The position numbers and the translations under genes are program-made. From positions 1-38,250 of the IMG/VR virus record IMGVR_UViG_3300019776_000417: 38,250 bases of DNA; one strand, 5' to 3'. Within the stretch, counting starts at the first letter, position 1, and each line of letters opens with the position of its first letter. Below are positions 2,516-5,680 of this stretch, piece by piece. The notes beneath the pieces are model-generated. The model searched no databases. It worked only from the letters and a program-made list of their open reading frames with translations, and was not told the origin of the DNA. This DNA is from a virus.

Positions 2516-2979
2516 AGCGCCGCCACCAACCCGACAAGACCGAGCTGCTGGCCCGCATGCCCCGCGCCTTCCGCCCCAAGCTCACCCGCCACCAGCTGGT
2601 CGACCTGGGCCTGTGCCACCTGGCCAACCTCGACGCCATCGCCAGCGGCCAGGCCGAGCCGGCGCTGATCTGGGACTACGTCAGCAGCATCTTCACCTGG
2701 TGGAAGGTGGCCCAGCTGCTGCAGGCCGGCATCCCTGAGATGAACGAGCAGCTCGAGGTGGCCACCCGCCTGGTTGAGCGCTACGGCCGCACGAACCGCG
2801 TGCGCTTTGACGGGCCCGACCTGCAGCTGGCCAAGGCCGGCATTGACGTGATGGACCAGCTGGCCGAGATCGTCGACCGGCCCACCGCCATGCAGGCCGT
2901 CGACTGGTCAGAGGCTGAGGTCGCCAAGCTCACCGCCATGGTGGCCACCTACCGGCAGGATGAAAGGGCAGCAGCATGA
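2512..2979 (+). CDS. Phage protein of unknown function, 155 aa
   Basis: The ORF starts in ATGA overlap with the preceding gene and ends in ATGA overlap with the next. It has a basic N-terminus (MKRRHQPDKTELL), then several amphipathic helices. No cysteine cluster, P-loop or membrane segment is visible. Small all-helical proteins with this layout occur in early operons of Burkholderia and Pseudomonas phages without assigned function. I give no function. Confidence 0.75.
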   Translation: MKRRHQPDKTELLARMPRAFRPKLTRHQLVDLGLCHLANLDAIASGQAEPALIWDYVSSIFTWWKVAQLLQAGIPEMNEQLEVATRLVERYGRTNRVRFDGPDLQLAKAGIDVMDQLAEIVDRPTAMQAVDWSEAEVAKLTAMVATYRQDERAAA

Positions 2980-3227
2980 TCGGCACCCAGCCCACCGGCG
3001 CGATCGCCGGCGTCATCATCAGCGCAGTCACCCACGAGGGCCTGACCGTCACCGTCGACGGCCGCCCGGCACGCCTGGCCATCGTCACCGACGACGGCCA
3101 GGTCATCGCCGCCGGCGACCAGGTGGCCCGCGAAGCCCGCGCCGTGGCCGTCAACAGCTACCGCGGCTTCCTGCAGGGCCAGGGGCACCTGCGGGTGTTG
3201 TCGAAGCCGTTGGAGCGGGGTGGGTGA
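2976..3227 (+). CDS. Small beta-rich phage protein, 83 aa
   Basis: The ORF is coupled to both neighbours by 4-base and 1-base overlaps. The sequence alternates hydrophobic and polar residues in short strands (GVIISAVTHEGLTVTVDGRPARLAIV), suggesting a small beta-barrel or SH3/OB-like fold. No catalytic motif is visible. Function is unknown; its position in the operon favours a DNA or RNA metabolism accessory role, which is inference. Confidence 0.65.
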   Translation: MIGTQPTGAIAGVIISAVTHEGLTVTVDGRPARLAIVTDDGQVIAAGDQVAREARAVAVNSYRGFLQGQGHLRVLSKPLERGG

Positions 3228-3832: not shown

Positions 3833-3855
3833 AGCCCGCTTCGGCGGGCTTTTTT
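3833..3855 (+). terminator. Intrinsic terminator of the rightward early operon
   Basis: A perfect 7-bp stem, AGCCCGC/GCGGGCT, closes a TTCG tetraloop and runs into six T residues (3850-3855). It ends the operon that starts near 34.4 kb and crosses the window junction. It separates that operon from the recombinase, so the recombinase needs its own promoter. Confidence 0.93.
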
Positions 3856-3901
3856 GCGCCCGCGCTACACTGCGCCCCGTTGCACGGCCACAAGCCCGCA
3901 A

Positions 3902-3994
3902 CGTTCGCTAGGGGTGTTGGCCACTGAAGGCCGACTGAGAAAGTCCCTTTGAACCTGGTTGCCGCAGACGTCTGCAAAGACGCGAGCGGCGAGG
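3902..3994 (+). promoter_or_regulatory. THI-element-like RNA: 5' half of a TPP riboswitch with an altered 3' arm
   Basis: The TPP-riboswitch core is visible in order: CTAGGGGTGTT at 3908-3918; P3 helix GGCC/GGCC at 3919-3922 and 3929-3932; the pyrimidine-binding T-loop CTGAGA at 3935-3940; AAGTCCCTTTGAACCTG to 3957. P2 can pair GGG 3911-3913 with CCC 3945-3947. A P1 of seven pairs (one G-U) closes 3902-3908 with 3982-3988. The usual second half (GGATAATgCC and GCGnAGGGA, the pyrophosphate sensor) is absent. In its place is a segment with a 12-bp palindrome (3964-3975). It lies upstream of, and in the same direction as, the recombinase gene, with no thiamine gene nearby. It may be a captured host thiC leader, an att-site relic or a repurposed RNA. 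Confidence 0.6.
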
Positions 3995-3995
3995 T

Positions 3996-4018
3996 CCGAC
4001 GAGTGTTTATCTTGTCGG
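3996..4018. other. Inverted repeat upstream of the recombinase: attP or expression-platform candidate
   Basis: CCGACGAG (3996-4003) pairs with CTTGTCGG (4011-4018) around a 7-base loop TGTTTAT. Large serine integrases usually have attP just upstream of their gene as an imperfect palindrome of about 50 bp. This repeat is the clearest such site between the terminator and the recombinase. It could instead be an RNA hairpin acting as the expression platform of the THI-like leader. A second candidate centre is the palindrome GCAGACGTCTGC at 3964-3975. The crossover dinucleotide cannot be set from the sequence alone. Confidence 0.3.
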
Positions 4019-4072
4019 CCCGAGGTAAGCCTCACGCCCGCCAAGTAAACTGCCCCGCACAGGGGGACAGAC

Positions 4073-5680
4073 ATGGCCGGCAGGGTCTACAGCTACATCC
4101 GGTTCAGCGATGCCCGGCAGGCCAGCGGCGCCAGCAGCGAGCGGCAGGCCGCCTACGCCGCCAAGTGGGCCGCCGACCACGGCCTGGTGCTCGACGAGCA
4201 GCTGAGCATGCGTGACGAGGGCCTGTCGGCCTACCACCAGAAGCACATCAAGACCGGCGCCCTGGGCGTGTTCCTGGCCGCTGTGGAGGCCGGCCACGTG
4301 GCGCGTGACTCGGTGCTGGTGGTCGAAGGGCTGGACCGCCTGTCCCGCGCTGAGCCGATCCAGGCGCAGGCCCAGCTGGCGCAGATCGTCAACGCCGGCA
4401 TCAGCGTGGTGACGGCCAGCGACGGCAAGGTGTACAGCCGAGAGCGGCTCAAGGCCAACCCGATGGACCTGGTGTACAGCCTGCTGGTGATGATCCGCGC
4501 CCATGAGGAGAGCGACACCAAGAGCCGGCGCGTGCGTGATGCGATGCGCCGGCAGTGCCTGGGCTGGCAGGCGGGCACCTACCGCGGGCTGATCCGCTAC
4601 GGCAAGACGCCGGGCTGGCTGCAGGTGGCGGGCGGGCGCTGGCAGCTGATCGAGCACCGGGCCGCGGCCGTGCGCGCAGCCGTGGACATGTGCCTGCAGG
4701 GCCTGGGCACCGGCCACATCGCCCGGCACCTGCACGCAGCCGGCCTGGCCAGCAGCGCGGCGGTGCCCACGTCGGGCCACCTTGTGCGGATGCTGGGCAA
4801 CCCGGCGCTGATGGGTGACAAGCACCTCGAGCTGGACGGCCAGACGCATGTGCTGGCCGGCTACTACCCGCCGGTGGTGGACGCCGCCACGTGGGCCGCG
4901 CTGCAGGACGCGCTGCAGCTGCGTGGCCGCAAGGCTGTGAAGGGCGAGATCCCGTCGGTGCTGACCGGCACCGGCGTGACGGTGTGCGGCTACTGCGGCG
5001 GGCCGATGAAGGCGCAGACGATGGCCAACAAGCGCCGGCCTGACGGCACGCTGGCCGACGGCCACCGGCGGCTGCAGTGCGTGCGCGTCAACTCGGGCGA
5101 GGGCTGCCCGGTGCCGGGCTCATGCTCGGCGGCGCCGATCGAGCGGGCGCTGGTCAACTACTGCAGCGACTTGGTGAACCTACAGGCGCTGTTCCGCGGT
5201 GACCGGGCCGCCCTGCCCCGCGGTGCGCTGGCCAGCGCCCAGGCCGAGCTGGCTGAGATCGACACCAAGCTGCAGCGGCTGACAGACGCGCTGCTGGACA
5301 CCGACGGCGCCGTGCCGGCCACCTTTGCCCGCCGCGCCCGCGAGCTGGAGGCCGCGCGGGACATGAAGGCGGCCGAGGTGCAGGCCGCCGAGCGGGCGCT
5401 GGCCGATGCGGCGCGCGCCGACATCACCGGCGCCGACGAGCGCTGGCGCACCCTGGCCGCCGGCGTGCAGGCGCTGGACTACGCCGCGCGCATGCAGGCC
5501 CGCCAGCTGGTGGCCGACACCTTCGAGCGGGTGGTGGTGTTCCGCAAGGGCATCACGCCCGGGGACACGCCACCGGGCCAGATCGACGTCATGCTGATGG
5601 CCAAGGGCGGCACCGCGCGCATGCTCAGCATCGACAAGGCGGGCGGGTGGCTGGCGGCCGAGGACGTGGCGCCGGATTGA
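4073..5680 (+). CDS. Large serine recombinase (phage integrase), 535 aa
   Basis: This is the site-specific recombinase expected to integrate and excise the phage. The N-terminal resolvase domain (about residues 4-150) shows YSYIRFSDARQ, with Ser12 the catalytic nucleophile and Arg10 beside it. It also has VVEGLDRLSR and the arginine-containing helix ESDTKSRRVRDAMR. The recombinase domain follows (about 165-290), then a zinc ribbon (CGYCGGPM with a later Cys pair around GCPVPGSC). A long coiled-coil segment (about 380-450) and a C-terminal DNA-binding tail complete the family layout, and the length is normal. ATG 4073 has an AGGGGGAC ribosome site. It stands alone between the early-operon terminator and the convergent lysis genes. 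The THI-like leader lies in its 5' region. Confidence 0.95.
   Translation: MAGRVYSYIRFSDARQASGASSERQAAYAAKWAADHGLVLDEQLSMRDEGLSAYHQKHIKTGALGVFLAAVEAGHVARDSVLVVEGLDRLSRAEPIQAQAQLAQIVNAGISVVTASDGKVYSRERLKANPMDLVYSLLVMIRAHEESDTKSRRVRDAMRRQCLGWQAGTYRGLIRYGKTPGWLQVAGGRWQLIEHRAAAVRAAVDMCLQGLGTGHIARHLHAAGLASSAAVPTSGHLVRMLGNPALMGDKHLELDGQTHVLAGYYPPVVDAATWAALQDALQLRGRKAVKGEIPSVLTGTGVTVCGYCGGPMKAQTMANKRRPDGTLADGHRRLQCVRVNSGEGCPVPGSCSAAPIERALVNYCSDLVNLQALFRGDRAALPRGALASAQAELAEIDTKLQRLTDALLDTDGAVPATFARRARELEAARDMKAAEVQAAERALADAARADITGADERWRTLAAGVQALDYAARMQARQLVADTFERVVVFRKGITPGDTPPGQIDVMLMAKGGTARMLSIDKAGGWLAAEDVAPD

Follow-up and report, generated by a model that had tools for sequence, protein, structure and literature searches.

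It is classic phage biology that an element enters a tRNA or tmRNA gene and restores the RNA; the known cases mostly involve tyrosine integrases and restoration of the 3′ end. Where PMC12884075 cites Williams 2002 (Islander), elements integrating in tRNA and tmRNA genes are described as restoring them. For Burkholderia phage JC1, integration at the 5′ end of rimO was demonstrated by experiment, with the attP located 41 bp upstream of a serine recombinase gene; a replacement start codon should keep rimO in frame, and in-frame RimO was predicted by the JC1 authors (PMC9144972). Here, we describe a phage locus in which a TPP-riboswitch-like element is very probably the left half of attP, the enzyme concerned being a large serine integrase for which TPP riboswitches of the host serve as attB.

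The window analysed (the whole IMG/VR phage record of 38,250 bases) encodes a major head protein, head maturation protease, portal, terminase and tape measure, and all features below are on its plus strand. The large serine recombinase (integrase) gene at 4073-5680 encodes 535 aa with matches above the Pfam cut-offs to PF00239 (Resolvase), PF07508 (Recombinase) and PF13408 (Zn_ribbon_recom), corresponding to a resolvase catalytic domain, a recombinase domain and a zinc ribbon, and it was assigned to PHROG 95 (integrase). The nearest phage in the annotated collection was JC1, whose recombinase is 52.7% identical to the window integrase. In a maximum-likelihood tree, the riboswitch-targeting integrases formed one clade of 14 rows with support 100/100, three of the rows being without a visible att site of their own and the root of the tree being arbitrary. 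The same tree contained 35 relatives with attL at the 5′ end of rimO, which was named in these loci by sequence and from PMC9144972. Providing the target with a new 5′ end, as JC1 does for rimO, is thus a habit of this integrase family; in the present locus, what is supplied is half an RNA sensor.

On the other side of the attachment site, an 83-aa conserved small protein is encoded at 2976-3227. Its homologues, 66-84% identical, adjoin attR in seven lysogen or attR loci and attP in L010 and L002, and the protein is kept beside the left att arm in both riboswitch-targeting and rimO-targeting phages (37 viral loci). No family match was obtained for it in Pfam, PHROG or NCBIfam. The protein, always on the left (attR) side of the site, is a candidate recombination directionality factor.

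The TPP riboswitch 5′ half occupies 3900-3957, starting 173 and ending 116 bases upstream of the recombinase ATG. It consists of the 5′ strand of P1, GGGG (3911-3914), P3 (3917-3922 with 3929-3934), CTGAGA (3935-3940), the 3′ strand of P2 and GAACCTG, the 5′ strand of P4, with CCCTTTGAACCTG at 3945-3957; it was recognized by RF00059 and by compensatory changes in P3. A sequence-only reading had noted an almost textbook THI 5′ half followed by a non-canonical arm, and had proposed scoring the two halves separately. The 5′ half alone indeed scored 27.4 bits against RF00059 (E 3.1e-4 across all 4227 Rfam families), while the 3′ half (3953-4072) gave no TPP match even at E 10 in the Rfam search, and therefore the non-canonical arm is real. 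The whole element (3900-4001) scored 21.1 bits, with an E of 0.0015 for a search of RF00059 alone against this one record; this is below the gathering cut-off of 54.3, and on score the element falls outside the family. Thus, the pyrimidine-sensing half (P2, P3 and CUGAGA) is present in the phage element, while the pyrophosphate-sensing half fails: P5 can form (GAGG/CCTC), but the 3′ strands of P4 and P1 are absent. Without these two strands, attP does not qualify as a full variant aptamer, and that reading was rejected. The P1 pairing suggested earlier, between 3902-3908 and 3982-3988, was also discarded, because a strong hairpin at about 3959-3992 includes its 3′ strand and the true partners of P1 and P4 are in the host.

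Before this half, an intrinsic terminator-like hairpin at 3833-3855 (stem AGCCCG/CGGGCT, loop CTTCGG, followed by a T run), identified by reading the sequence, ends the upstream phage operon. It accounts for blastn matches in unrelated phages, and a blastn search of the leader against annotated phages gave terminator matches only. A −10 promoter-like box, TACACT, follows at 3866-3871; transcription from this presumed phage promoter would run into int in attP and into the host gene in attR. A TANANT box within 45 bases upstream of the element was present in all 12 sites tested, against 0.33 expected. We also observed an extra stem, CGTTGC...GCAACG, at 3878-3903 directly upstream of P1, and comparable stems precede P1 in several of the attP, attR and attB sites.

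Loci with the same recombinase were drawn from viral contigs and genomes, and every THI-like site in them was lined up, giving a core line-up of 20 sites. The THI motifs stood at the same place throughout the recombinase clade. Four kinds of sites were distinguished. The attB sites (L208 and L215) are intact host riboswitches reading GAACCTG, ATT, GAGGTAA and TCCTCGCGCAGGGAAGC, and they scored 60.9 and 55.9 bits, respectively, against RF00059. In attP, found in the window and with variations in L010, L011 and L002, GAACCTG is followed by an insert of 26-64 bases, GAGGTAA, GCCTCACGC and, further on, AAGTAAAC and int. The attL sites (L206, L207, L004 and L009) read GAACCTG, ATT, GAGGTAA and (A/G)CC(T/C)CACGC, again with AAGTAAAC and int downstream; the core in the attL of L200 and L203 is GAGATC. 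Conversely, the attR sites (L196, L197, L198, L210 and L212) carry GAACCTG, the insert, GAGGTAA and TCCTCGCGCAGGGAAGC followed by a host gene, with the core variants GAGATCA in L199 and GAGTTAA in L211.

Paired attL and attR were located on one contig in Variovorax sp. SG517 (G017:C2, 202142/155361, 46.8 kb), Variovorax sp. UMC13 (G018:C23, 230594/191033, 39.5 kb) and an Acidovorax MAG (G019:C26, 111695/70605, 41 kb), and also on the viral contig G003 (101/41636, 41.5 kb). When the SG517 riboswitch-cytX site was rejoined, it found a match in 58 of the 61 genomes of the genus, many of them uninterrupted across the joint. The left flank of the window, with the 83-aa protein, corresponds to the phage side of attR, and its right flank, with int, to the phage side of attL. 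Judged from these sequences, the paired loci are prophages in riboswitches and the window is the free-phage junction. The attR sites nearest to this phage (L212 and L213) come from viral contig fragments without int, its own lysogen being absent from the collections searched.

In Paenacidovorax caeni (L203, 2027 to about 4780), an attL, a shortened integrase gene and cytX lie within 3 kb, apparently a deleted prophage of which the junctions are left. An Acidovorax MAG (L201, 4013) carries an attR-like riboswitch with a P-arm-like motif upstream of cytX and no adjoining prophage; 2 kb upstream of this riboswitch is an AraC-type gene, which flanks attL in L200, suggesting a relict. On the viral contig fragment G016 (L213, 2-1573), a second, different serine recombinase gene (MKRAVIYARVSSENQAEEGLS...) is found about 2.6 kb downstream of attR, on the host side, where it adjoins the TonB receptor gene. 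In metagenome 3300025303, L163 has an attL-like site at 1625 whose host half already carries two natural hairpins and from which int is separated by 4.9 kb with other genes intervening; the attR with core GAGTTAA (L211, 2439) is from the same metagenome. Three of the ten viral-contig matches from one pattern (L217, L218 and L220) were set aside as chance matches.

The insert that separates P4 from P5 in attP spans 3958-4021 in the window and forms hairpin 1 (about 3959-3992) and hairpin 2 (3996-4018), the latter carrying the P arm; the fold, covariation and natural host counterparts all point to this arrangement, and the predicted folding energy of the hairpins is −33.6 kcal/mol (z −4.6). A symmetry scan revealed an imperfect inverted repeat of GTTTATCTT (4005-4013, P arm) and AAGTAAAC (4043-4050, P′ arm) centred on AA at 4027-4028, and the P′ arm adjoins int in all attL. 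We place the minimal attP at 4003-4052, its 50-bp extent being an expectation taken from known serine integrases. From the line-up of 20 sites, the att core GAGGTAA (4022-4028), with variants in sub-groups, is common to attP, attB, attL and attR and corresponds to P5/L5 of the host riboswitch. The span originally assigned to the element, 3902-3994, is therefore too short, since the functional unit extends through the core and to about 4050 in the P′ arm.

In three of the four attP, the inverted repeat is centred on the two final bases of the core; in the fourth, L002, this centre is tied with a neighbour. These bases are AA in the window and L011 and CA in L010, where the core is GAGATCA, and they map to loop L5 of the host aptamer RNA. 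In both sub-groups with variant cores, GAGATCA (Acidovorax group) and GAGTTAA (L211 group), the phage half and the host half agree. The comparison of sites thus places the recombination of attP with attB within the common core. An attP adjoining int, an imperfect inverted repeat, a short common core and hybrid attL and attR in lysogens were all found, as expected of serine integrase att sites.

We then considered what each product contains. P4′ (CAGG) and P1′ (AAGC) were present in 8/8 attR and 2/2 attB; P4′ was found in 0/4 attP and 0/6 attL, and P1′ is absent from most attP and attL. A complete aptamer therefore exists only in the uninserted host or, once the phage has integrated, in attR. 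All eight attR have every strand of P1-P5 and the conserved junctions, and the predicted minimum free energy fold of the L212 attR forms P2-P5; in the host as in the chimera, P1 is a short helix (GCU/AGC). The target RNA is thus complete in sequence after integration, and the chimeric attR riboswitch would still sense TPP. Downstream of attR is either a cytosine/purine-type permease gene or a TonB-dependent receptor gene. The permease has a Pfam match above cut-off, and its best NCBIfam match, below the strict cut-off, is CytX, a putative hydroxymethylpyrimidine (HMP) transporter. The supposition of a thiC leader did not hold: in the attR cases examined, the targeted riboswitches precede cytX or the TonB receptor gene.

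Against RF00059, the attR sites scored 31-44 bits, again below the gathering cut-off, and the same was observed for host riboswitches carrying a comparable insert. Among 401 genomes of the family, a pattern search identified 24 riboswitches in which hairpins separate P4 from P5; most of these have no P-arm motif, and we therefore rejected the notion that the inserted hairpins are phage-specific. These natural variants (L222-L245 except L244, at position about 1500) have one hairpin or two at this place; L225 and L244 (the same as L196) are the exceptions to the absence of a P-arm motif and a prophage. They scored 29-42 bits, and by protein sequence their downstream genes are of the same kinds as those of attR. 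Because scores and gene kinds are shared in this way, the insert lies within natural variation. The Rfam cut-off misses a whole hairpin-bearing variant of the TPP riboswitch, and annotation pipelines would overlook such riboswitches. The natural hairpins could have arisen in the hosts themselves or be what earlier integrations left behind.

If the 5′ half were a functionless relic of an old capture of host DNA at an attachment site, its position would not be surprising, since serine integrases need about 50 bp of attP and the THI part lies outside 4003-4052. For the same reason it should have decayed, and yet nearly every member retains the conserved motifs, L002 alone having one of them changed (GCACCTG). 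In the halves supplied by phages, P3 was paired in 63/66 cells (11 sites; shuffled mean 45.5, maximum 59), with two to three pair types per position, and the P-arm hairpin in 41/45 (shuffled mean 23.0, maximum 39); neither value was reached in 2000 shuffles, which ignore the shared ancestry of the sites. Direct compensatory changes distinguish the inserts of the window and L212 (GTCT/AGAC against CCCT/AGGG). Together with the invariable promoter box and an attR product holding every aptamer strand, this covariation makes a dead relic very improbable, and the phage half looks maintained. The proposed capture of a host leader at an attachment event is hence borne out as regards the attachment site, and not as regards a relic. 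Nor does integrase binding explain the upkeep, since about 70-128 bp separate the THI half from the crossover centre, which puts it beyond the expected footprint of about 50 bp. The still simpler idea that the TPP similarity is due to chance, or imposed by integrase binding alone, could appeal to the low score of the whole element and to the similarity in core and P5 that attP and attB would share as substrates of one enzyme. It can practically be dismissed, given the E-value of the 5′ half over all Rfam and the recurrence of the THI motifs at that distance, in the same place, across one integrase clade; the attL/attR pairs that lysogens carry within TPP riboswitches exclude it.

Another alternative is that a variant TPP aptamer puts the integrase of the phage under its control, so that integration would be switched by a metabolite. 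The 5′ half does sit in the leader of int, P5 can still form in attP, and one attL (L206) scored 46.8 bits, more than the other attL, and might form an aptamer with a bulged P4, so that some members may have TPP control of int. Against this, no TPP score was obtained for the 3′ half, none of the attP and attL examined has the 3′ strand of P4 and most are also without that of P1, and the P′ arms of attP vary in a manner that fits an integrase arm rather than P4 and P1. With these strands missing and the 3′ half unscored, control of the integrase by TPP is not a conserved feature. The exchange of att halves, moreover, accounts for every feature, and we regard the switch on integration, which the sequence-only reading had entertained, as very improbable. 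As attP and attL have no P4 3′ strand, the integrase itself is probably not TPP-regulated.

We favour the attachment-site explanation, in which the integrase inserts the phage DNA at loop L5 of a TPP riboswitch upstream of cytX or a TonB receptor gene, exchanging halves between the phage attP and the host riboswitch. The resulting attR consists of the phage promoter, the phage 5′ aptamer half, the extra hairpins and the host 3′ half (P5 and the 3′ strands of P4 and P1) followed by the host gene, and attL of the host promoter and 5′ half followed by the phage P′ arm and int. Since the phage half brings the −10-like box, a phage promoter would come to lie upstream of the host gene and the host promoter upstream of int. 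The well-folded 5′ half may be kept so that the attR chimera still senses TPP, and the lysogen would thereby retain control of the uptake of a vitamin B1 precursor, much as tRNAs are restored by the elements targeting them, while the integrase would stay outside TPP control. A further proposal is possible but unlikely in our judgement: that a chimera with a phage promoter, P3 and hairpins responds at another set-point or strength, lysogeny thereby rewiring HMP/thiamin uptake, and that the natural P4-P5 hairpins may be integration scars, with phages shaping riboswitch architecture.

In a literature search of open-licence papers, we found no report of a riboswitch as attB, and a ligand-sensing riboswitch aptamer used like a restored tRNA or tmRNA is undescribed as far as the searched literature goes. 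Loop L5 of TPP riboswitches would represent a new serine-integrase target, where a phage takes control of the promoter and of one half of the sensor in front of a vitamin-uptake gene of its host. The natural chimeric riboswitches, with halves from different genomes, provide a direct test of TPP aptamer modularity.

Compared with the TPP riboswitch of RF00059, the phage shares the P1 5′ strand, P2, P3, CTGAGA and GAACCTG but has the 5′ half only; attR adds P5, P4′, P1′ and the GCGCAGGGAAGC 3′ end upstream of thiamin-related genes, and differs in the extra insert of 26-64 bases, folded into one hairpin or two, that stands between P4 and P5 and lowers its score to the range given above. The natural P4-P5 hairpin riboswitches of the same bacterial family resemble it in the place and shape of the insert and in the kinds of downstream genes, but, apart from L225 and L244, they are without the P-arm motif and without a prophage. 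With the JC1 integrase, the system has in common 53% identity, an attP directly upstream of int and a phage-supplied 5′ end that keeps the target intact; JC1 supplies a start codon, whereas the phage described here targets a non-coding riboswitch aptamer and brings half an RNA structure. The likeness to the elements restoring tRNA and tmRNA genes, as these are described in the cited source, lies in an attB within a structured RNA gene and an element carrying the part that rebuilds it. In contrast to those elements, the present one employs a serine integrase, targets a riboswitch and would provide the 5′ end together with a promoter.
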